Counted from the stretch's first letter, positions 14,290-35,080 are shown. The stretch: DNA of 64,000 nucleotides from Cytophagales bacterium (GCA_030446715.1 JAUJMU010000001.1:124001-188000); one strand, 5' to 3'. Translations and numbers: made by a program. Notes: a model not told the origin generated them from the letters alone.

Positions 14290-15339
14290 ATGCTCAATAC
14301 AACCACTTTACAAGTCAATCTGGAGTTCCTTAATCTAATCAGTGAAATTGATGAGTTTAAGGGTGCCTGGCGTACATTAGGGACTCTGGCACCAGAACGC
14401 CTGTCCGCTCTGCGCCGTGTAGCAACCATTGAAAGCATCGGCTCATCTACGCGGATTGAAGGCAGCAAGCTCTCTGACCGGGATATCGAACGCTTACTAT
14501 CCAACCTGGAAATCCAGTCATTTGCTACACGGGACGAGCAGGAAGTTGCTGGTTATGCCGCTGTAATGAATACGGTTTTCCGGGCATGGGAAGACATCCC
14601 TGTTACTGAAAATTACATCCAGCAGTTGCACGGGGACTTGCTGACCTACAGCGAAAAGGACACCTGGCACCGCGGACGATATAAAACTACCTCTAACTCC
14701 GTTGCCGCTTTTGACGCGGCAGGAAAACAAGTTGGAGTCGTTTTTGAAACGGCTACGCCTTTCGATACGCCTTTTCTAATGAGTGAACTGGTAGCTTGGT
14801 TGAACAAAGCCCGGGAAGAGCGGCGTTTGCACCCTGTATTGATTATAGGTGTGTTTGTTGTTGTCTTCCTAGAGATTCACCCGTTTCAGGACGGCAATGG
14901 CCGTCTTAGCCGTATTCTAACGACACTACTGCTGTTACAGGCTGGCTATGCCTATGTACCCTACAGCTCATTGGAAAGCGTCATTGAGCAGAATAAGGAA
15001 GCCTATTACCTGGCTCTGCGTCAAACACAAGGGACTATTCGCACTGACGCGCCCAACTGGCAGCCGTGGCTTGTTTTCTTCCTGCGGGCCATGCAACAGC
15101 AAAAGCAGTGTCTTGCCAGAAAGGTTGAACGCGAGAAGATTGTTCTTTCCAATTTGCCGGAACTCTCCGTGCAAATCCTTGAGCATGCTCGTGCTCATGG
15201 ACGTGTGACAATTGGGGAAATGATCCAATTGACCGGAGTTAGCCGCAACACCCTCAAAGATCACTTCCGCGCCTTGACAGAAAAGAACCATCTAATACAG
15301 CACGGTGGCGGACGGACCACTTGGTACAGCTTGCCTTAG
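14290..15339 (+). CDS. Fic family protein (AMPylase-type) with C-terminal HTH
   Basis: 349 residues from the ATG at 14290; the frame extends to a TTG at 14272, but that start is less likely. An N-terminal inhibitory motif SSTRIEG (S/T-xxx-E-G type) lies about residues 55-61. The Fic core motif EIHPFQDGNGRLSR lies about 195-210, with the catalytic His and the nucleotide-binding DGNGR. The C-terminal ~70 residues form a winged-helix-like domain (VTIGEMIQLTGVSRNTLKDH). Fic proteins transfer AMP or other nucleotides to target proteins; the inhibitory Glu keeps them off until relieved. It lies 70 nt before the Argonaute operon on the same strand, but its composition is closer to the core genome. 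Confidence 0.9.
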   Translation: MLNTTTLQVNLEFLNLISEIDEFKGAWRTLGTLAPERLSALRRVATIESIGSSTRIEGSKLSDRDIERLLSNLEIQSFATRDEQEVAGYAAVMNTVFRAWEDIPVTENYIQQLHGDLLTYSEKDTWHRGRYKTTSNSVAAFDAAGKQVGVVFETATPFDTPFLMSELVAWLNKAREERRLHPVLIIGVFVVVFLEIHPFQDGNGRLSRILTTLLLLQAGYAYVPYSSLESVIEQNKEAYYLALRQTQGTIRTDAPNWQPWLVFFLRAMQQQKQCLARKVEREKIVLSNLPELSVQILEHARAHGRVTIGEMIQLTGVSRNTLKDHFRALTEKNHLIQHGGGRTTWYSLP

Positions 15340-15409
15340 CCATTTTACATCAGTCACGACTGTGCAACGCATCGTTGACGACCTCAGTGATTCAAAGTAA
15401 ATTTAGTAT

Positions 15410-17641
15410 ATGAAATCCAACTTTTATCCTATTGCTTTTGACTTCGAAGAGTTTGATGTTCAGCGAATCCCTTTTCAAGAAGGTTTACTGTCACAGTTAA
15501 AACGGGTTCATAATGCTACCTACTCGTTCTTCCGCCGTGGGGATTTCATTTATATTTCGCCTGGTACACCAGATGCAGAACCACTAGGCCAAACCGTCCG
15601 TCTACGCATTCAAGAGCATCTTCATGTTGTAAGCTCATTAATTAAGCACGTATTTTTCCGCGCTGTCAAAGAGGCGCAACCTACGTTGCAGCCTGAATTT
15701 TATCCGTTTCGATTTGCTGCAAGACGTTCAGACTTTGATCTGGCGTGGAAGTATGTTCCGGATCATCTACGTAGAGTGCTAACTTTTAAACGTATTACTG
15801 AGGTGCAATTCCGTGAGCATGCAAATACAAATCAACGTTTAGTGTTTGGGGCACTTATAAACCATCAGTACAAATGGAATTTAAGTCGTAATTGTAAAGA
15901 GCTACTAGAAGCTGGCTTTAATGTAAGCAACAGAGAGGTGACAGGAACTCAATCACCTGACTATGCTGATGGCGTAGTAGCACCTGAAATTTCTCTACTT
16001 GGCAGAATACAAAAAGTAAATGGTAGCACAGCGGTAATTGATACTCATAATGGATTGGAAAATTACTCTCTTAAAGATTTGCATCTGCATAACTCTAGGG
16101 AAAATATCACTGCCTTTCTCAGATGGGCTATCGGTGAATCTCAGGCAGATCAAGTTTTACGAAGCATCAAGGATCGAGAAGCCCAGAAGCTGAAGCTTTC
16201 CGTAACAATGTCAGAAATCGAAGCTATGGGCCAATGGCTGAGTGGTTTGAACTATCACAATTTCGACTCCTTTGGCTTTCGTATTACACAAGACAATACT
16301 GTAGTTTCGCCCGCTAGTTTTTCATTGACAAAACCCAATCTTATATTTGATTTAAGCAAAACCAGGGTCCATTCGAAACCCTCAATCGGGCTAAATATGT
16401 ATGGCCCTTATAGCCGCTCTGCCGGATTTTCCGGGAATTCTCCGCGTATCTTGGTCATTTTTCATCGTCAACATGCGGGCGATTTTACCAGATTTCTAGC
16501 TCACTTACGCGATGGTGTGCCAGAGCACCAATGGTTTCCTAATGGTATGATTGGTAAGTACCGTTTAACTAATATGACGTTTCATATTGAGGAACTTACT
16601 AATTATTCTGTTGAGGAATATTTAGGTGCGATTGAGCGAGGTGTAGGTAAGCAAGATGCCGCTTTTGATCTGGCTATTATCGAAACTTCAGAAGATTTCC
16701 GGAGTTTGCAGAATACTGAAAATCCCTATTTTAGAGCAAAAGCCATGCTTTATATGCAGGGTACCACTGTACAATCTATCAAGCCTGATACAGTAAGATC
16801 ACCCACATATACAATTGACGGTATTGCTCTTCAGATATACGCCAAACTTGGAGGTACCCCTTGGACTGTTCCTGGTGATCAGAGTGTGGATCGGGAATTA
16901 GTAATTGGAATAGGTAGCACAATCTTACGGCAAGGCCAGTATGCTGGTGCCGCGCAGACACGTTATGTAGGAATTAGCACTTACTTTTCAGCTGATGGAA
17001 AATATCTCACAAACAGTCGCACACAAAATGTACCATATGAGCAATATTTTGATGAGTTACTACGGAACATCAAGTCAGCAATAGATCGTCTTTCTAATGA
17101 GTATAGCTGAAACGACGGTGACCGCGTCCGGCTTATATTCCATATTTTCAAACCGATTAAAAATATGGAAGCCGATGTAGTTAGTCGCCTTGTTAGCGAG
17201 TATCCTCAATATGATATTCGATTTGCATTTGTCACTTTAGTTGAACGCCACCCTTACATATTATATGACGAACACCAACAGGGTAATAACGGAAAGGGAG
17301 CTAATGTGCCCAGCCGAGGTTATGCGTTACCCATATCGACGCGTGAATGCCTGGTTCACTTATTAGGTAACCGGGAGGTACGAACGGCATGGCATGGTTC
17401 TCCTACCCCAGTATTAGTACGTATTCACGAGCAGTCTACATTCTTGGATTTACAGTACATCGTACAACAAGTTTTCAAGTTCAGTCGCTTATCTTTTAGG
17501 TCTTTTGGCCCAAGCTATACGCCAGCAACTCTTCTGTATGCCAACCTGCTTACAAGACAGTTGAAAGATTTACAAACCATGCCCGGTTGGAACTCTACAG
17601 TTGCTAGTACTCAGTTAAGGCAAAAAAAATGGTTTCTCTAG
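15410..17641 (+). pseudogene. Prokaryotic Argonaute (long, catalytically inactive), in-frame TGA
   Basis: The frame runs 566 codons to a TGA at 17108-17110, then continues open in the same frame (GDRVRLIFHIFKPIKN, MEADVV) to a natural Argonaute end KKWFL at 17641; total about 743 codons. N-terminal/L1/PAZ-like region about 1-330 (for example VVAPEISLLGRIQ). MID motif NPYFRAKAMLYMQGTTVQ about 442-460. PIWI: ALQIYAKLGGTPWTVP about 476-491 and ELVIGIGST. The first catalytic Asp is Gly here (IGIGS), and the later Asp position is FHIFKP instead of the HRDG type, so target cleavage is not expected. The TGA probably arose from TGG. AT-rich composition points to transfer. It could be reading-through, a sequencing error or a true pseudogene. 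Confidence 0.8.
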
Positions 17642-18484
17642 AGGCTCTGTCTGCTTACTTGATACCGCTGCGGGCTAATCCACTTACTAATTTCTTCCTT
17701 GATTTTCTGAACGATATACCGGGGTTGTCAGCTCCGGTACTTAATCCGTCAGATACTGACAGTGTTGTATGCAATTTATTAATATACGTGCAACAAAACG
17801 ACGTTGTTTCTGCAACCGCTTTGTATCAAAAATTCACTACCCGCCGAGTGAGGTCTGATCCAGAGTGGATACACAACGATTTTTTATTATTTGCCTTAGT
17901 CTGCACGGTAAGCAAGTTCCGATTGGATAGTCAATGGGTAAGACAAGTCCTTCTTTGTCGCCCCAATACGGACGTAATGCAGCGATTAATCAATAAGTCT
18001 TTTGAAAATTTATTGGCTGGTGATTATAATGCAAGTGAGGATTATCATCAAATCTCTGTGGTGTTCCAAATTGTAACTCAGCAAATTCAGCCCAATGACA
18101 CTAGGCTGAATCAAATGTTTGCTTGTTTTAGCTGCCCTATGGCGCACTTCATTTCCATACTTCGAGTCAGATTTCTTAAATATAATTTCATTAAGGGCAA
18201 TTCGTGCTACCTTTGAAGCGAAAGGACTCCTAAATCCAGAGCAACGATTTGTAACCGAGCAATTTGCGTCACGCTTTTTAACTCGAGTAAAGCTTATTAC
18301 TAAAATAATATCTGTTACAGTTTTTGCCTTAATGATTGGAGGACTTGCAATAAGTGCTGTATTCTTCGCAGATAATATCTGGGTCAAGAGAGTTTTAGCA
18401 GTACTATCAGCATTAGGTTTAGGGGCAAGTTTCTTTGCCGACATCCGCACCTGGCTTGCTTCACATATCGAAAAAAATGATTAA
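17629..18484 (+). pseudogene. pAgo-associated transmembrane effector, frameshifted
   Basis: The ATG at 17629 overlaps the last 13 nt of the Argonaute gene. The first frame (to 18216) is a soluble helical region of about 165 residues (starts MVSLEALSAYLIPLR). Near 18110-18125 the coding signal moves to another frame, which continues to 18484 with LRAIRATFEAKGLLN, then two C-terminal membrane helices (about LITKIISVTVFALMIGGL and VKRVLAVLSALGLGASFF). Intact length would be about 285 residues. Inactive long pAgos are known to pair with nuclease, SIR2 or membrane effectors that kill or arrest infected cells; this gene fits the membrane type. The frameshift may be real decay or an indel error. Confidence 0.65.
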
Positions 18485-18575
18485 GCGGTGCTGGGGTTAT
18501 AAGCATTGAAAAACAGTGAATAAATCAGCCATTTATACTTAGTCATAGAGGCTTTGCTCCACTAGCAATACCGTA

Positions 18576-18585
18576 TATACTCAAA
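18576..18585. repeat. Target-site duplication of the ISAs1 element (left copy)
   Basis: TATACTCAAA directly precedes the left inverted repeat; an identical copy follows the right inverted repeat at 19864-19873. Confidence 0.9.
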
Positions 18586-19863
18586 CAGGGCGATTTCATA
18601 AAAAGCTAAGCAGTTGAGAAACAGGCGAAAGCTTTTTGTAAGCAGAAGTTAAGTTCTTCTCTAAAAGCCTTAATATTTCCTTTGTTGTCTTGTTTTCGCA
18701 TCAGATTGAGGGCAATATTAATCACCGAAGCAATCATTCGGCTTCGGGCAGCATTGTTACAACGGATTTTGTCCTCTCCTAAGGTAACATCCCGAATGTA
18801 GTTATCGGCTTCCACTGACCAGTGATTTCTCACCCCATTAAATAAGCCTAGAGCCGAGTGTGCTCCAAGAGGTAAATTACTGATAAAACAGGCTCTTTCC
18901 TGACTTTGTTTGCCGTCTTTGAGGCGTAAACGCTCCCGGTCAATGACGATCAGCGATTGGATGGCAGTATCCTTCCAGCGCTCATCCAGCCAGTCTGCCT
19001 TCAATTCATAGCTTGTCGCCAGGCGTTTTTCTACCCGTCCATGAGCTTTATCCAGGCTTTCTAACGGATACTTTCCCGGCAGATGCTGCTGTACGTGTTC
19101 ACACCCGGCTAATAACTCAGCCTGATTGGCCTTGACTTGGGCTACATACGTGCCTTTTTTAGCTGCAATCGTTTCTAATAAGGCCGGATAAGTATGCAAC
19201 GCATCAAAGCTGTAGGCCTGGCTCAGCTGAGATTGCTGGGAAAAATACTGTTTTACCACCGTTTTTTCGGACTCTTTATCGCCTTGATAAAAACCGATGA
19301 TCTCACTTTGGGAATCGGTATGATTGACCAGGCGGACTACATTTTCGCCTCTTTTTTGCCCGCTTACCCCGTCAATCGTGCCTCGGAGTTCTTTCCCATC
19401 AATGGCTTGCCACTCTTGAGCCAGACCTGCTGCTTGAGCCAGACCTGCTGCTGGGGCAGATGCCCGGAGGGTAACGCCGAAATAGGCTTGATTGATTTGA
19501 CTGTAGCTTTGATAATCTACCCCGGCCAGTACCCGGCGTAACTGCGCATCGGAGATGGACCCTTTACCGGCATGTCCTGGCAGCAGGCTTAACTGCTCAT
19601 GTTCTTTCACCATCCGTCTTTGCACACTTGCCACATCTAAACGCGTTCCTGAACGTAACACTGCCAGCAGAAACCCCGTCAGCACGAAGGCTAAGTTATG
19701 GCGCTTGCCGCGATTGTCCCGCTGATCAGCTAAGTGCATTTGTATATACTCAAAATAGGATTTAACTTCCGTTTCAGTAGGGAGAGTGGTGTTCACTTGG
19801 TGGGGTTGCCTGGTCGTATCCTCCCAAAGTTCACCCTTTCCCTATTTTTATGAAATCGCCCTG
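18586..19863 (-). mobile_element. ISAs1-family insertion sequence
   Basis: 1278 bp, bounded by perfect 19-bp inverted repeats (CAGGGCGATTTCATAAAAA at 18586, and its complement ending at 19863). It is flanked by a 10-bp direct repeat TATACTCAAA. A single full-length transposase gene fills the element. The identical ends and target duplication imply a fairly recent insertion, just 3' of the pAgo operon. Confidence 0.95.
18606..19796 (-). CDS. ISAs1-family transposase
   Basis: 396 residues. Family motifs are AIDGKELRG (first catalytic Asp), SFDALHTYP (second Asp), and the C-terminal NHWSVEADNYIRDVTLGEDK with the third acidic residue region. An 18-bp tandem duplication (19415-19432 and 19433-19450) repeats the residues AGLAQ just before the first catalytic Asp, slightly lengthening the protein. 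The gene appears intact. Confidence 0.95.
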   Translation of the reverse strand: MNTTLPTETEVKSYFEYIQMHLADQRDNRGKRHNLAFVLTGFLLAVLRSGTRLDVASVQRRMVKEHEQLSLLPGHAGKGSISDAQLRRVLAGVDYQSYSQINQAYFGVTLRASAPAAGLAQAAGLAQEWQAIDGKELRGTIDGVSGQKRGENVVRLVNHTDSQSEIIGFYQGDKESEKTVVKQYFSQQSQLSQAYSFDALHTYPALLETIAAKKGTYVAQVKANQAELLAGCEHVQQHLPGKYPLESLDKAHGRVEKRLATSYELKADWLDERWKDTAIQSLIVIDRERLRLKDGKQSQERACFISNLPLGAHSALGLFNGVRNHWSVEADNYIRDVTLGEDKIRCNNAARSRMIASVINIALNLMRKQDNKGNIKAFREELNFCLQKAFACFSTA

Positions 19864-28472: not shown

Positions 28473-29650
28473 ATGTCCAAATTACTTCCAATTCACCCTT
28501 TCCCTGCCCGTATGGCACCCGAAATAGCATATGAAGCAATCAAAAATTTACCTGCAGGTTCTACTGTCTTAGATCCAATGCTCGGTTCTGGCACAACAGC
28601 CAAAATTGCTTCCTTAAATGGACATAGGTGCATTGGTTTTGACATTGATCCCTTATCAATCCTTATTTCTAAAGCTTGGAGTTCTTGTGTTCCTCAACAA
28701 CAGGTAATCAAGAGTATGTACAAAACTCTGGAATCAACAGTAAACCTGAAAAAGGATATTCACTTACCTTGGATTATTTGATGACGATCTGGAAACAAAG
28801 CGGTTCATTGATTACTGGTTTGCTCCCCAACAACGGGATGATCTGAGGAAGCTATCTTATCTAATAACAAATCATTCAGATCCCGGAATACAGATTATTT
28901 TAAAAGTTGCCCTTAGCAAATTGATTATTACTAAAGATAAGGGGCCTCATTAGCCCGCGACGTCTCACATGGCAAACCTCACAAAGTTCGAAGTGAAAAT
29001 GACTACAATGTAATTGACAACTTTGAAAAAGTAGTCACCCATATTACCAAGAAAGCCAACGTCAACGCGGCAATAGTGCCACAGATCGGTTTATGTGATG
29101 CACGTAGACTGGCTGATGTTGATAACGATTTAGTCGATTTAATAATCACCTCTCCTCCTTATCTTCATGCTGTTGAGTACATGAGGGGACACAAACTATC
29201 TCTTGTGTGGCTGGGTTACTCCTTAAAGGACCTGCGTAAGATCAAGGAAAGCACAATTGGCACGCCGATTCGTCCCACTGAAGATGCTGATATTTTAAAA
29301 CTCGATTGCTCCATGAAGTAGGTGAACTTCATCAGCTACCCCTGATAAAGCAAAAACATGTTTTAAAGTATGCTGTTGATTTATATGCCACTGTCAAAGA
29401 GTTTCACCGTGTACTTAGACAGGGTGGGAGGGCTACAGTGGTGATTGCAGATGCTTTCTCAAAAGGTGTTTTAGTCAAGAATACGCAGATATTAAAGAAC
29501 GCTGCTGAACTTAGTGGTCTCAGGTTACACCATGAGCAGCAAAGGCAAATCCTTGCCTCGAAGCGATACTTACCTCCTCCAACAGCATCATCAGGCAATG
29601 ACCTAGGTAAAAGGATGAAGACGGAGTCAGTTTTAACTTTTACCAAGTAA
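28473..29650 (+). pseudogene. DNA methyltransferase, multiply frameshifted
   Basis: The N-terminal frame (28473-28781) carries motif I, VLDPMLGSGTTAKIA (about 32-46), and the GFDIDPLSILIS acidic loop. Coding then moves to a second frame from about 28780 (DDDLETKRFIDYWF), to a third at the GGGG run 28941-28944 (SLARDVSHGKPHK), and holds through the catalytic SPPYLHAVEYM at about 29150. It shifts again near 29300-29320 and ends as KTESVLTFTK. Motif I precedes SPPY, and SPPY suggests an amino methyltransferase (N4-cytosine or N6-adenine). An intact protein would have about 390 residues. At least three indels break it. It is the first gene of the NurA-HerA operon. Confidence 0.8.
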
Positions 29651-29664
29651 AGCACTGTTCGGAG

Positions 29665-30294
29665 ATGGGATCAGCATCATATCGGGAACTAAGCTTACAT
29701 CAAAGGCTAATGGCTAGAGATGAGACAGCTACTATTGAACTTTCAGGACTATACTATTTCCAATTAATAGAACAGGTCATCAAAAAGTATGGGCGTGTTC
29801 TTACCGATGAGGACACAATCGCAAGCATTGTCGGAGATGTAATACTAGACTATGGAGCAAATCCACATAAATACAACCCTGACAAAAGCTCGCTTTACGG
29901 GTACTTAAAAATGGCCGTGGACGGGGATATCAAAAATTTGCTAAAAGGACAAACCAAAGGCAAGCGAAGGCTGAAATCAAAAAATATTGGTGGAAGTGTC
30001 GAACTTGACAGTCTATTCCGGAATAGTATAGTAAGAGAGGTAAATGACCCGGCTACAAACCTGATTACAACCGAGGATGAAGAGAGAAGTACCCGAGCCA
30101 TAGAAGCCCTTTTTCCCGATCCTGCTGATCGTGAATTGGTAAACCTTATGCGTTCAGGCACTCGAGAAACAGAACCTTATGCTATAGTACTTGAAATAAC
30201 ACATTTGTCTATAATAGATCAGAGGAAAAAAGTGAAACAACATAAAGACCGCATCAAAAAAAAGCTGTATAGGTTTCAAAGCCAATCTTCATAA
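29665..30294 (+). CDS. Sigma-70-like protein in the defence operon
   Basis: 209 residues. The N-terminal half resembles sigma region 2 (TIASIVGDVILDYGANPHKY, NPDKSSLYGYLKMAVDGDI). The C-terminal half resembles region 4 (LFPDPADRELVNLMRSGTRE, then VKQHKDRIKKKLYRF, the recognition-helix-like end). It could direct RNA polymerase to island promoters or act as a DNA-binding regulator. It starts 14 nt after the methyltransferase stop and is followed after 11 nt by the small protein gene. Confidence 0.6.
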   Translation: MGSASYRELSLHQRLMARDETATIELSGLYYFQLIEQVIKKYGRVLTDEDTIASIVGDVILDYGANPHKYNPDKSSLYGYLKMAVDGDIKNLLKGQTKGKRRLKSKNIGGSVELDSLFRNSIVREVNDPATNLITTEDEERSTRAIEALFPDPADRELVNLMRSGTRETEPYAIVLEITHLSIIDQRKKVKQHKDRIKKKLYRFQSQSS

Positions 30295-30305
30295 ATATCT
30301 TAAAA

Positions 30306-30668
30306 ATGAACAAGCGTACGCATTATAAAGAACTACTTATAAAAAAAGCATCCTTAAATAGGGAGTACTTAGCTTCTTACATTGAGCGGTATATGCAGTT
30401 CGAGAACATAGACAAGGAAAATATTAAATTACTCCTAGGGTGCTCAGAAGACAACTATTTCAAACTATGCGTCTGTTTGGCTCCGGAGTTAGAAGCAGAA
30501 GATTTTAAAGAGCGCATTGACAAAATTGCTGCCGCAACCTCTACCTCCTCACTGTCAATTATAAGAATATTGAAACGAGTAGATATGCTACAATCTATTG
30601 GTGACTCAGATGTTATGCTAATGGCAGCCCGAATGAAAGAGTCTAAAAATGAACGAGACGATGAATAA
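30306..30668 (+). CDS. Small regulator-like protein (120 aa) before the ImmA/IrrE protease
   Basis: 120 residues, soluble, helical. A segment LLLGCSEDNYFKLCVCLAP reads like a short helix-turn-helix-type region, and the C-terminus is charged (ESKNERDDE). I do not know the family. It lies between a sigma-like protein and an ImmA/IrrE protease with 11-nt gaps on each side. A plausible role is anti-sigma factor or repressor cleaved by the protease, by analogy with DdrO/IrrE and ImmR/ImmA; this is inference. Confidence 0.6.
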   Translation: MNKRTHYKELLIKKASLNREYLASYIERYMQFENIDKENIKLLLGCSEDNYFKLCVCLAPELEAEDFKERIDKIAAATSTSSLSIIRILKRVDMLQSIGDSDVMLMAARMKESKNERDDE

Positions 30669-30679
30669 AATATATCGTT

Positions 30680-31438
30680 GTGAAAACCATTTATGCAACG
30701 CCTTATATTATTGAGTTAGCAACAAGCTTTTGGAAGAAAGCGGGGGATATAAGTTCTTGGCCTCGTGATTTAGATCAAGCAGTTGCAGTTGCTCTACCAA
30801 TTGATGTAGTAAGTTTATCAAGATTAAGTACAAAGAAAATAGAAAAGTGGTTTCGCTCACGTAACTTTTCTTACCAACTTCTCGCTGATGATAAGCTTTT
30901 GCACGGTTTTATTATGATGAACCGGGGAAAGGGCTTCATATTCCTTAACGGAACTGACAGTAAAGAAGAAAGGCTTTTCACTCTTGCTCACGAAGTATCC
31001 CACTATATTATAGATTATCAGCAACCTCGCATTAAAGCCAGCAAGGTATTTGGAAAGCGTATTTTAGAAGTAGTAGATAGGCTTCGACCACCCACATCGC
31101 AGGAACAAGTAGACAGTGTCTTACTAGCCACAGAAATCAAACCTTATACCCACTTACTGGCAAAAGGCAGTAACTCCTACTGCAATGATTTGAAGATTTG
31201 GCAAGCAGAGGATAAGGCTGACGCATTAGCTTTCGAGCTATTAGCACCTTTTAACTCTGTTTATGCTGATCTGAAGGAGAAATCCGTTTCCTCATATAAA
31301 AACTGCTGTGCAGTTGCAGAACAGCTACTTATTAATAAATACGGTTTACCATCTTCTGTCACTTCATTGTATGCCCATTTTTTGGCACGCAGTATAACTG
31401 GTGGCCCTTCCGCATTAGAATCACTAGGATTAATATAA
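30680..31438 (+). CDS. ImmA/IrrE-family metallopeptidase
   Basis: 252 residues from a GTG at 30680 (no better ATG in frame). The zinc protease motif LAHEVSHYIIDY (HExxH, about 102-113) is intact, followed about 75 residues later by an acidic third-ligand region (AEDKADALAFELLAP). ImmA/IrrE enzymes cleave DNA-binding repressors in response to stress or mobile-element signals. The likely target is the 120-residue protein encoded just upstream (inference). Confidence 0.85.
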   Translation: MKTIYATPYIIELATSFWKKAGDISSWPRDLDQAVAVALPIDVVSLSRLSTKKIEKWFRSRNFSYQLLADDKLLHGFIMMNRGKGFIFLNGTDSKEERLFTLAHEVSHYIIDYQQPRIKASKVFGKRILEVVDRLRPPTSQEQVDSVLLATEIKPYTHLLAKGSNSYCNDLKIWQAEDKADALAFELLAPFNSVYADLKEKSVSSYKNCCAVAEQLLINKYGLPSSVTSLYAHFLARSITGGPSALESLGLI

Positions 31439-31502
31439 AAATTTGTATTGCCTGTCGAACTTGATTGACTTCTCCGGAATAGATTATTAAACAGTTTCTT
31501 TT

Positions 31503-32699
31503 ATGGAAGAAATAAACCAGCCACTGCCATATAGTAGCGAAATTGTACCTAATTCTATTAAGGGGCAAGAGTTGTCGTCACAACAGGAATATGAGAAAGC
31601 CATTGAAGCAGCTACGGACTTAGATACTTGGCATGATGGTGTTGACTTAATCAAGCTTTACCCAGAAATGAAAAAATGGGTAGAAGATGGGATTTACAAT
31701 GATGAACTGGGTGCCAAACAAATCAGGTCGGAGATCATTCCTATGATTGAGACTAGCCCTAATAGAATCGAATGTTCTGGGCTACACAAATTTGAGCCCT
31801 CTGATATTGAGAGAGCTCATCGTGGGTTATTGTTCAATGGTGGAGTTGAGGCATGCGATGGTACAATGGCATCGCATGATACACTTCCCTTGACTACTAC
31901 CCAAATCGGTGTTTGCATGGCTTCTTATCACGGACAACAAGGAAGTTTTGTACACCGCCTTTTTAGAAAAGATTTTAAAATTCGTGGTGAAGATCCAATG
32001 AATGAGGCTTTAGAGATGCTTAATCTGCGAAGTAAAAGAGATAGTATTGGATATAGCGAGCACGCGGGTAGAGGTATTATGGCTTATGCAGAACGAGCTC
32101 TGTTGTTAGAAAAATCAAAAGCAAGATGGCATATGGGACATGGTAGTCCTGTACCCTGGGAGTTGATGACGGGCTTTTGGGCAAGTAAGCGTGATATGAC
32201 TGATAAAGCATTGGATTTGATGAGGAGAATGATAAATCATAAACGCTTTGTTTATATACCAAGTGCGCCTAAAAAACTTGCTTTGTTATCATTTGGCAAC
32301 GCTCTCAAGCCCTTCGAATATCTAGTACTAACCACTTATGAGAAGGAATTAAACGATTTACTTGAAGATGGGCATATTCGTGACTCTTACATAAAAAAGA
32401 ATATGCAAGAATTTGTCAATGAAGTAGGCCCACAGATTGCTATTGGTGTTTACCGTGCGTCTCCTTTTTCTCCTCCTTTTGTTTACTATGCTCATCGAGA
32501 CAACATGCAGATCGCTGCGCTTATTGCAATGGCTGATAGTACTCTCCAGCAGCATAGAGGATTTCCAATGCTGATCGATATTGCCGATAAATTATGCCAA
32601 AGCTCATTTGGAGCAAACACTTTTAAATCAACTGTCCAGCAGGCTTATGCTGATGCAGGAAGACCATTCCAGTACTCGCCCGAACGAGACACTCGTTAA
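31503..32699 (+). CDS. NurA-type nuclease
   Basis: 398 residues. The NurA pattern is seen in a central GGVEACDGTMASHDTLPL stretch (about 119-136; the Asp of CDG is the predicted metal ligand), a VYRASPFSPPFVYY strand and a C-terminal segment with RDNMQIAALIAMADSTLQ and a closing QHRGFPMLIDIADKL, which in NurA holds the second part of the RNase H-like site. NurA works as a dimer with hexameric HerA to degrade DNA ends. It lies 41 nt before herA. Confidence 0.75.
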   Translation: MEEINQPLPYSSEIVPNSIKGQELSSQQEYEKAIEAATDLDTWHDGVDLIKLYPEMKKWVEDGIYNDELGAKQIRSEIIPMIETSPNRIECSGLHKFEPSDIERAHRGLLFNGGVEACDGTMASHDTLPLTTTQIGVCMASYHGQQGSFVHRLFRKDFKIRGEDPMNEALEMLNLRSKRDSIGYSEHAGRGIMAYAERALLLEKSKARWHMGHGSPVPWELMTGFWASKRDMTDKALDLMRRMINHKRFVYIPSAPKKLALLSFGNALKPFEYLVLTTYEKELNDLLEDGHIRDSYIKKNMQEFVNEVGPQIAIGVYRASPFSPPFVYYAHRDNMQIAALIAMADSTLQQHRGFPMLIDIADKLCQSSFGANTFKSTVQQAYADAGRPFQYSPERDTR

Positions 32700-32740
32700 G
32701 ACCCTAAAATAATAATCTCACAACAATAATTAATACTCCT

Positions 32741-34615
32741 ATGCAGCCAGACTTATTCTCTAACAATCCTGTCACGGAAAACGGTAAAAAGGAACCCATT
32801 GCCAAACCTCCTAGTGCAGAATTAAGGCAACAAATTGCCGAGCATATAGACGAAGGCGGAGGAGAACAAACAATTGACCCTGCGTTTGAAGGAGCCCACG
32901 GCACTACTATGTTTGACCTGCCTAATAGTGAAGATAATATTATAACAGTGTTACTTCCTCGCGAGCATATACAAAAACTTTCTTCTCAATCACTTGTAAG
33001 GATAGGCAGTCGCAGTTTAAATCATGGTGGAGATGGAAGAGAATATCGAGGGATAGTAATTGCTGGTCCTTTTCATGAACCGGACGGGTTAAGAGCGGAC
33101 ACTAACATGATCGTTATACCTACAATCAATGGAGCATTCTTCATGCCTAAATACCATGGGCGTGTCCAAGTTGAAATCATGGGAGAACTTAAAGCTGATG
33201 TTGTAATTGCTCCTCTTTTTCGCCCTTTACCTAATAGCCCCGTTTTTGCGCTTGATGAAGAGGAAACAAAAAAATTATTAAAAATCGACGGAGAAATGTT
33301 GCTTGGTCAAGCTGTAGGTCACAATAATATGGAAGTTTTTATACCGAGGCGAAAAGAAGTCATATCTAAACATATGGTTGTATTAGGGAATACCGGCGGT
33401 GGTAAATCAACAACTAATTCTGGTTTGATAAGCCAATTTCAAAAGCAAGATATAGCTACAATTGTCTTTGATACTGAAGGAGAATACACACACATCGATA
33501 AACCTACTGAAGATGAAATAATGATCGGTTTGTTAAAAAAGCAAGGTAAAAATCCTGAGAAGGTTTCTAATATTCATGTTTACCATCTAACTGGTAGAGA
33601 TACTAAAGCAGAGCCTCCCACTCCAATAAGTGCTTTCAAACTAAACTTTTCTAATCTGTCTCCTTATGCAGCAGCCGATATTTTGGATCTAAATGACACT
33701 CAGCGTGATCGCTTTTTTGACCTGTATGACTTAACCAAGTTTATTATAAAAACTACAGGAATATATCCAAAGGTTGATGACATAAAGGAAGCAAAAGAAG
33801 CCAGTAGTATTGACGAATTGGAAACCGGTTATCCAAAAATGACTTTATCGCTTTTAATCGATATGGTTGAGTTTGTTATTGCTTATCTGTCAAAAGATGA
33901 CTATGAACCTTTTAATAAGGTTCTACAGGATGTTCAAACAATCCGGATTATTAAAGAACGGCTTGATAAGATGAAGCCTGATTCAAAAGCAAGCTGGAAA
34001 GCTGTGAAAAATCGACTTTGGAGACTACACAAGCCTGGGATATTTGATCAAGCATCGTGTGCGGAGATTTCATACAAAGATTTATTACAGCCCGGAAAAG
34101 TATCTATTATTGACTTAAGCGATACTGATTCTACTATGATTAACAATTTAGTAATTGCTAATCTACTTCGAGGAATACAGTTAGAGCAAGATAGAGCTTA
34201 TGAGCAAGCTGTTAATGAAGGCAAAAGTCCTACTCCAGCAATGATTATTATTGAAGAAGCGCATGAATTTCTTCATAAGGACCGTATTGCAAAAATGGAT
34301 CACTTATTTCAACAAGTTGCACGTATAGCACGCAGGGGTCGTAAGCGCTGGTTAGGTCTTTTATTCTCCACTCAGTTGCCTCAGCATTTGCCTGATGAAG
34401 TGTTAGGGCTTGTTAACAATCACATACTTCATAAAATTAATGACGCTACTGTTGTAAGCAGGCTAAAAAAATCTATAGGAGGTATAGATGAAAGCTTATG
34501 GAATAAATTACCAAACTTGGCCTCTGGTCAAGCTATTGTGAACACAACACGAATGGCAAGATCTTTATTAGTAGCTATTAACCCAACACCTTGTAAGTTG
34601 TTAATGATCGAGTAA
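32741..34615 (+). CDS. HerA-type DNA translocase ATPase
   Basis: 624 residues. An N-terminal HAS-barrel-like region (about 60-170) precedes the ATPase core: Walker A VLGNTGGGKSTTNSG (about 212-226), Walker B AMIIIEEAHEFLH (about 498-510), and the sensor/arginine-finger region QVARIARRGRKRWLGLLFST then PDEVLGLVNNHILHKI. The C-terminal KLLMIE is typical of HerA. It forms a hexameric ring that feeds DNA to NurA. This is the last gene of the AT-rich operon that starts at 28473. Confidence 0.9.
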   Translation: MQPDLFSNNPVTENGKKEPIAKPPSAELRQQIAEHIDEGGGEQTIDPAFEGAHGTTMFDLPNSEDNIITVLLPREHIQKLSSQSLVRIGSRSLNHGGDGREYRGIVIAGPFHEPDGLRADTNMIVIPTINGAFFMPKYHGRVQVEIMGELKADVVIAPLFRPLPNSPVFALDEEETKKLLKIDGEMLLGQAVGHNNMEVFIPRRKEVISKHMVVLGNTGGGKSTTNSGLISQFQKQDIATIVFDTEGEYTHIDKPTEDEIMIGLLKKQGKNPEKVSNIHVYHLTGRDTKAEPPTPISAFKLNFSNLSPYAAADILDLNDTQRDRFFDLYDLTKFIIKTTGIYPKVDDIKEAKEASSIDELETGYPKMTLSLLIDMVEFVIAYLSKDDYEPFNKVLQDVQTIRIIKERLDKMKPDSKASWKAVKNRLWRLHKPGIFDQASCAEISYKDLLQPGKVSIIDLSDTDSTMINNLVIANLLRGIQLEQDRAYEQAVNEGKSPTPAMIIIEEAHEFLHKDRIAKMDHLFQQVARIARRGRKRWLGLLFSTQLPQHLPDEVLGLVNNHILHKINDATVVSRLKKSIGGIDESLWNKLPNLASGQAIVNTTRMARSLLVAINPTPCKLLMIE

Positions 34616-34677: not shown

Positions 34678-34956
34678 ATGGATAATTTCGACCTTACCCT
34701 TGATTTCAGTCTTATCAGTGCTCCCGAGTTGAGTTCTATCCGGGTCAACCACACAGAGGTCAAATCCGTATTTGAGAACAAGAACTCCAGATACGAGGAT
34801 TTCGGAGACTTCAGGTTTGCAATAGGATACAGCAGTAAATCCAAATTTTTGTCTGTTGCATTTGATACCCAAACCGAAATCGCCGATATTAGGGTATTGA
34901 AAGTCTATCTGTCCCATGAAACCGAAATTCAGAAAATCTACTGCACCCCAGGCTGA
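34678..34956 (+). CDS. Small protein, possible BrnT-like toxin
   Basis: 92 residues. A His-x(4)-VKSVFEN region, RFAIGYSSKSKFLSVAFD, and a C-terminal DIRVLKVYLSHETEIQKIY together resemble BrnT/RelE-like small toxins (RNase fold), but weakly. A second small gene overlaps its end by 41 nt, as in many toxin-antitoxin pairs. It follows the HerA gene by 62 nt on the same strand. Confidence 0.45.
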   Translation: MDNFDLTLDFSLISAPELSSIRVNHTEVKSVFENKNSRYEDFGDFRFAIGYSSKSKFLSVAFDTQTEIADIRVLKVYLSHETEIQKIYCTPG

Positions 34957-35080
34957 AAATCCCCTCGAGGGATTAACCTCCGAACAGATCAGCCAGAAAG
35001 TACTTTCCCTTCACCGCAAGGAAAAGGTGATGAAGAGCAGTGAGTTTTGGTCGGGTTTACCCGGAAGGAAGAAAGAGTAA
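34916..35080 (+). CDS. Possible antitoxin (54 aa)
   Basis: A short frame starts MKPKFRKSTAPQAENPLEGL and ends SGLPGRKKE, highly basic with a helical middle (SEQISQKVLSLHRKEK). It overlaps the preceding toxin-like gene by 41 nt in a different frame. Size, charge and overlap suit an antitoxin; no family recognised. Confidence 0.45.
   Translation: MKPKFRKSTAPQAENPLEGLTSEQISQKVLSLHRKEKVMKSSEFWSGLPGRKKE

Follow-up and report, generated by a model that had tools for sequence, protein, structure and literature searches.

A candidate inducible NurA-HerA immune operon with its own sigma factor and ImmA/IrrE protease in a Cytophagales bacterium

Gene content of the operon

In a 64,000-nucleotide (nt) stretch of DNA from a Cytophagales bacterium (GCA_030446715.1 JAUJMU010000001.1:124001-188000; hereafter the window, in whose coordinates positions are given), six genes on the plus strand at 28473-34615 form a candidate defence operon. 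It begins with a DNA methyltransferase (MTase) pseudogene (28473-29650), followed by SIG (29665-30294), encoding an extracytoplasmic function (ECF)-like sigma factor of 209 amino acids with region 2 and a region-4-like C-terminus, SM (30306-30668), encoding a small XRE-like helix-turn-helix protein of 120 amino acids, and IMM (30680-31438), encoding an ImmA/IrrE-family metallopeptidase of 252 amino acids. The last two genes encode a NurA-fold nuclease (31503-32699; 398 amino acids) and a hexameric-translocase ATPase, HerA (DUF87; 32741-34615; 624 amino acids). A first-pass annotation of the same DNA had described six same-strand genes, separated by gaps of 14, 11, 11, 64 and 41 nt, in an AT-rich block. 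These coordinates and gaps are exact, and the GC content is 37-43% in the operon versus 50-60% in its flanks. The reading frames of five of the six genes are open, the exception being the MTase. Naming the genes of the window copy through PADLOC, Pfam and NCBIfam returned only generic matches for HerA, MTase and ImmA, and none for NurA, SIG or SM.

The NurA assignment had been guessed from gene position, and comparison of folds shows the guess to be correct. No Pfam or PDB sequence match was found in any of the 44 members of this protein family. The AlphaFold2 model has a predicted local distance difference test score (pLDDT) of 87.5 and a predicted template modelling score (pTM) of 0.83, and its ten best Foldseek matches in the PDB are all solved NurA chains (2ygk, 3.6e-7), with a match to the HerA-NurA of T. 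kodakarensis at 2.3e-6. Residues D119, E197 and D345 are invariant in the 44 members, and H331 is conserved in 95%. In solved relatives, this fold is that of an end-acting nuclease. HerA, as annotated, matches Pfam DUF87 (1.3e-20) and has the conserved Walker motifs of a HerA/FtsK-clade ATPase (Walker A TGGGKST, and IEEAHEF). A NurA-HerA complex and nuclease activity of the operon proteins are predicted.

The three genes between the MTase and NurA resemble regulators. Sigma70_r2 (PF04542) is found in 23 of 42 SIG family members (best 4.4e-10), which upholds the earlier sigma-like call, and the best PDB match is the ECF factor RpoE (0.0014). SM is XRE-like in 6 members (HTH_31), and its structure model consists of six helices and a low-confidence C-terminal tail. 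Within this tail, an xAAR motif is near-invariant (41 of 42 members); in the window copy it forms part of residues 105-109 (LMAAR), whose codons lie at 30618-30632 on the plus strand. The motif, near the disordered C-terminus, is a candidate protease site. IMM matches Pfam Peptidase_M78 (2.5e-7) and contains HExxH, in agreement with the annotated ImmA/IrrE protease; H104, E105, H108 and E177 are invariant, and the protein matches IrrE and CapP. SM and IMM are adjacent in 44 of 45 loci. In a Geodermatophilaceae genome (L032 7026-8879), SM-like and ImmA/IrrE regions occur in a single open reading frame (ORF) of 617 amino acids, possibly a repressor-protease fusion.

The MTase span of 1178 nt is not divisible by three, and homology to the intact protein of Fibrella rubiginis runs through frames 1, 2, 1 and 3, in pieces at 28473-28781, about 28780-28953, about 28953-29321 and 29306-29650. 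The MTase identity in the first-pass annotation stands, as the N-terminal piece matches Pfam N6_N4_Mtase (4.7e-8), but the gene is not intact. Its motif X/I (HPFPARM...DPMLGSGTT) and motif IV (TSPPY) are those of an alpha-order amino-methyltransferase, and the family as a whole has the same order, DPMxGSGTT before TSPPY. No further MTase copy was found in the 6.4 Mb window genome; intact copies are present in relatives. The frameshifts, of which there are at least three, might be sequencing errors in an intact operon, given that each lies within or adjoins a short homopolymer run and that the homologous pieces contain no extra substitution-type stops. We regard this as rather doubtful, as the other five genes (5 kb) are without frameshift and the housekeeping genes on either side of the operon are also intact. 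If the frameshifts are real, the window copy is either an MTase-less version of the operon or an operon in decay.

Distribution and genomic neighbours

With the NurA-like protein as query, 84,980 genomes yielded 43 loci, which are distributed over about 12 phyla: Bacteroidota, KSB1, Acidobacteriota, Chloroflexota, Thermodesulfobacteriota, Nitrospirota, Pseudomonadota, Planctomycetota, Lindowbacteria, Actinomycetota, Bacillota and UASB270. The order SIG-SM-IMM-NurA-HerA on one strand is kept in nearly all of 45 loci. As judged from sequence, these five core genes form a unit that reappears in different phyla, in most cases accompanied by an amino-methyltransferase, and because the arrangement recurs in about 12 phyla, it is far beyond what chance would produce. 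The first-pass annotation had named co-occurrence of the families elsewhere as the observation on which its proposal depended, and the families do co-occur, in the same order. From the protease side, a search of 301 Chloroflexota gave 17 strong matches, and NurA is the next gene in all 14 that are readable (where the contig continues). The possibility that SIG-SM-IMM is a promiscuous regulator of many effectors was rejected, as NurA stands beside every readable strong protease match.

Within the window's class, the operon is present in 2 of 395 genomes. The second is that of F. rubiginis (G049, L003/L020), with six genes in order and an intact MTase; its HerA gene (L020 10188-12029, equal to L003 5806-7647) has one in-frame stop, the opposite of the window copy. 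A contig from IMG/VR (L005) contains six intact genes, with the MTase convergent. The Agaribacillus and Chloroploca loci (L007 and L047) likewise have all six reading frames open. The operon is absent from both same-genus genomes searched; these were also tried as a source of the exact empty site, which was not obtained because the left flank is non-syntenic. A plasmid search gave no NurA, and its HerA matches were rejected as generic, C-terminal and below 32% identity. On the maximum-likelihood tree of NurA, there are 14 changes of phylum compared with a minimum possible of 9, and several well-supported clades mix phyla. This pattern suggests, though it does not prove, horizontal transfer of the operon.

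Two further loci depart from the common layout. In Mesorhizobium (L042 6548-12017), SIG and SM are missing, and ImmA/IrrE, NurA and HerA come immediately after the MTase. Another genome (G813; L120 4656-11425) encodes a divergent whole system with weak IMM and SIG matches, NurA at 199 bits, HerA at 436 bits and a longer MTase, which is treated here as an outer branch of the family.

In 11 of the 45 loci (L009, L010, L019, L021, L026, L027, L029, L033, L035, L041 and L045), the genes immediately downstream, in the same orientation, are cas genes. Sampling of these loci confirmed Cas3, Cas1, Cas4-Cas1, Cas6 and Cas8, and the gap between HerA and the first cas gene is 2 nt in L027 and 4 nt in L021. 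Clustering of shared neighbours gave no upstream cas genes. The cas genes were identified by homology, and a simple repeat scan detected no CRISPR arrays in the fetched loci. Other neighbours of defence type are HsdR in L005 and a TmtA-like protein in L046.

In the window, where ORFs of at least 100 amino acids cover 86% of the sequence, two small overlapping ORFs (34678-34956 and 34916-35080) follow right behind HerA within the AT-rich block. They have no Pfam match and could, as a guess, encode a pair of toxin-antitoxin type or be passenger genes. Another AT-rich stretch, at 15001-19000 (GC 0.41-0.45), is possibly a further acquired block.

A two-block promoter-like element

The operon contains two copies of a two-block promoter-like element, TGTCGAACTT-N12-CGGAATA. 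The first copy, P1 (29997-30026, plus strand; TGTCGAACTTGACAGTCTATTCCGGAATAG), is internal to SIG and precedes SM by about 280 nt. It falls in the stretch coding for the linker that joins regions 2 and 4, which is the least constrained part of the protein sequence. The second, P2 (31453-31482, plus strand; TGTCGAACTTGATTGACTTCTCCGGAATAG), occupies the gap between IMM and NurA, with 23 nt from the end of CGGAAT to the NurA start. These are the only perfect matches in the window genome (starts 29997 and 31453). Among 58 loci, the element is found within the SIG coding sequence in 52 and before nurA in 47. At a strict threshold, 75 of the 81 sites in the 58 loci fall at these two expected positions, and the same threshold gives no sites in 1.8 Mb of reversed-sequence controls. 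The IMM-NurA junction that houses P2 is the sole long one in the operon, with a median of 74 nt; the medians at the other junctions are -8, -4, 11 and 16.5 nt.

The SIG-internal copy is conserved as DNA: the spacer is one base longer in L013, L015, L017 and L034, which shifts the reading frame of the second block, and of the five wobble positions that are best conserved in SIG, four fall in the element. In addition, P1 and P2 covary within a locus (one base, Fisher p 8e-5; spacing, p 0.003; permutation p < 2e-4), in tests from which near-duplicates were dropped and which correct only partly for relatedness. The covarying variant GTCGCAC occurs at L010, L024, L028, L029 and L046, among others.

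As SM is XRE-like and repressor sites within genes are common, the element might be the operator of SM, acting as an XRE repressor, and not a promoter read by SIG. This is unlikely, since the element is non-palindromic and almost every site points towards the gene that follows it; the sole exception is a minus-strand site in L048, with a minus-strand gene ahead. Furthermore, the sites lie mostly 20-45 nt before nurA, the spacing of the blocks is -35/-10-like, and the second block reads TGTATA in L009 and L010. Because it is non-palindromic, oriented, spaced in this way and tied to an ECF-like sigma factor encoded in the same operon, the element is best read as a putative SIG promoter, with P1 serving SM and IMM and P2 serving NurA and HerA. 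A built-in induction switch had been suggested in the first-pass annotation, and the conserved element strongly backs it, together with the pairing of an XRE-like protein with ImmA/IrrE.

The placement of the element varies in several loci. In L027, where the gap between IMM and NurA is 0, the site is found in the gap between NurA and HerA instead, and L039 has one site before SIG. In L018, sites precede HerA and the gene for an SbcD-like phosphoesterase (12686), and in L041 a site (12685) lies about 45 nt ahead of the start of Cas4-Cas1. Through these extra copies in L041 and L018, the switch may extend to neighbouring genes. A large genome-wide regulon was rejected for the exact pattern, as only about 4 of 27 matches in 29 genomes lie outside the operon. 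Exact matches away from the operon occur at L126, L136, L143 and L146, and one is inside a cas8e gene. That copy (L154 542, in the genome of L035) is off the operon, within cas8e (Cse1) and upstream of cse2-like and cas7-like ORFs, and represents either chance or a regulon.

Interpretation and comparison with known systems

With a probability of roughly 0.68, we interpret the operon as an inducible NurA-HerA immune system that spreads by horizontal transfer and is switched by a sigma factor and an ImmA/IrrE protease of its own. In the proposed mechanism, RNA polymerase carrying SIG would read both P1 and P2, the former driving SM and IMM from inside SIG and the latter driving nurA-herA together with any cas or repair genes that follow. 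SM would keep the circuit off by binding either SIG or DNA. Upon infection or DNA damage, IMM would be activated, probably by single-stranded DNA, as are PprI and CapP (PMC10904395), and would cut SM near the xAAR motif. SIG would thereby be freed and NurA-HerA would accumulate, with HerA translocating on DNA ends and handing them to NurA. The MTase, where present, probably marks self DNA or may tune the switch.

Several points weigh against this interpretation. The defence role is deduced from components and neighbours. Region 4 of SIG and its recognition of the promoter are likewise inferred, and the fold matches of SM to DdrO and CapH are weak and not significant (E > 1). Some members lack the MTase or carry a broken one, the Bacteroidota operons are set among housekeeping genes outside a defence island, and several operons adjoin UvrD, an AddB-like nuclease or the SbcD-like phosphoesterase, neighbours that also fit DNA repair.

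On the strength of such neighbours, and of an element copy lying upstream of the SbcD-like gene, the operon could instead be a DNA-damage-inducible end-processing and repair operon, in which ImmA/IrrE senses single-stranded DNA, SIG switches on NurA-HerA and double-strand breaks are resected as by archaeal HerA-NurA. DNA repair in Deinococcus is indeed under ImmA/IrrE-XRE pairs (PMC10904395). A dedicated repair operon nonetheless seems improbable in view of the patchy spread across phyla, both within the class and in the scattered phylum labels on the NurA tree, the DNA methyltransferase adjoining 35 of the 45 loci and the cas genes directly behind 11 of them.

The MTase is upstream and co-directional in 28 of the 45 loci, upstream and divergent in 4, downstream and convergent in 3, and non-adjacent in 10. 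No close copy exists in the genomes of L026, L034, L038, L041, L044 and L048, which give weak family matches only; in those of L029 and L045, related MTases that might serve the operon in trans are present elsewhere, and they appear as a different, HPFPAKF-type branch. The MTase is dispensable in some lineages. Of the restriction-modification logic in the first-pass annotation, the common adjacency of the MTase holds, and its loss from other operons and its frameshifts in the window do not fit. Classical restriction-modification, with the MTase protecting a site and NurA-HerA degrading unmodified DNA, would account for an adjacent, often co-directional MTase (median 11 nt to SIG) with conserved amino-MTase motifs, but it is very unlikely. 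The MTase is non-adjacent in 10 loci, has no close genomic copy in six and, in the window, is frameshifted in an operon whose NurA and HerA are open. Among the operon proteins, Pfam and PADLOC give no match to an endonuclease family, and none is a known endonuclease with sequence specificity.

A wider form of the immune-system interpretation has about even odds: a mobile, self-contained immune regulon, in which SIG carries the promoter of its own circuit and a second copy controls NurA-HerA, extended to CRISPR-Cas or repair neighbours. It is put forward because in L027 and L021 only 2-4 nt separate HerA from the cas genes and because the element precedes Cas4-Cas1 in L041. If the immune-system interpretation is true, a NurA-based effector joins the HerA-centred defences, and a defence system can bring its own sigma factor, beyond a mere repressor. 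The element TGTCGAACTT-N12-CGGAATA would then be a DNA signature with which to find the system and predict co-switched neighbours, including cas genes, and the control of toxic nucleases before infection would become a directly testable question.

The first-pass annotation could match the operon to no named system, and the present comparison agrees: no described system matches in PADLOC 2.0.0 (2023) or in the literature searched, a search outside which most subscription journals, bioRxiv and supplements fell, so the lack of a match is no proof that the system is new. For MADS, the mad1-mad8 set is missing; the MTase and HerA folds give no more than generic matches to mad2 (1.1e-5) and mad8 (5e-19). 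For BREX-related systems, key genes are missing. HerA systems described elsewhere are built on PglZ and DUF6079 and do not share the operon's gene set (PMC12839542). The intact cognate MTase of a Type II restriction-modification system is likewise lacking in the window, where the gene is frameshifted.

Like the operon, DUF4297-HerA and SIR2-HerA encode a hexameric HerA translocase adjacent to a partner enzyme. DUF4297-HerA degrades DNA and blocks phage, and it is toxic and needs tight control (PMC11291478). PADLOC and Pfam detect no DUF4297 or SIR2 partner in the operon, which differs in that its partner is a NurA-fold (RNase H-like) nuclease and in its sigma-XRE-protease switch and frequent MTase. 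The archaeal HerA-NurA end-resection complex also pairs the NurA fold with HerA; however, the operon is bacterial and probably horizontally mobile, its NurA sequence is not detected by Pfam NurA, and the Mre11-Rad50 pair is absent except for the SbcD-like gene in L018. In the legend of the FLSHclust survey, NurA and HerA are given as putative CRISPR auxiliary genes (PMC10910872), an entry that may overlap the CRISPR-linked members; that legend names no sigma factor, ImmA/IrrE or MTase.

With regard to regulation, the closest parallels are CapH-CapP, which controls immune operons (PMC13373217), and DdrO-PprI(IrrE), which likewise place a small XRE-type protein beside an ImmA/IrrE peptidase in overlapping genes. 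Unlike these, the operon has a sigma factor before the pair, and a non-palindromic promoter-like element replaces the simple operator. In Myxococcus xanthus, the ECF sigma factor DdvS controls a defence island and switches anti-phage and CRISPR genes (PMC12288465), whereas the sigma factor described here belongs to a probably mobile system, contains its putative promoter within its coding sequence and would act in partnership with a cytoplasmic protease. What is new relative to these systems is the promoter-like two-block element, within SIG and before nurA, as part of a previously unnamed system of five to six genes.

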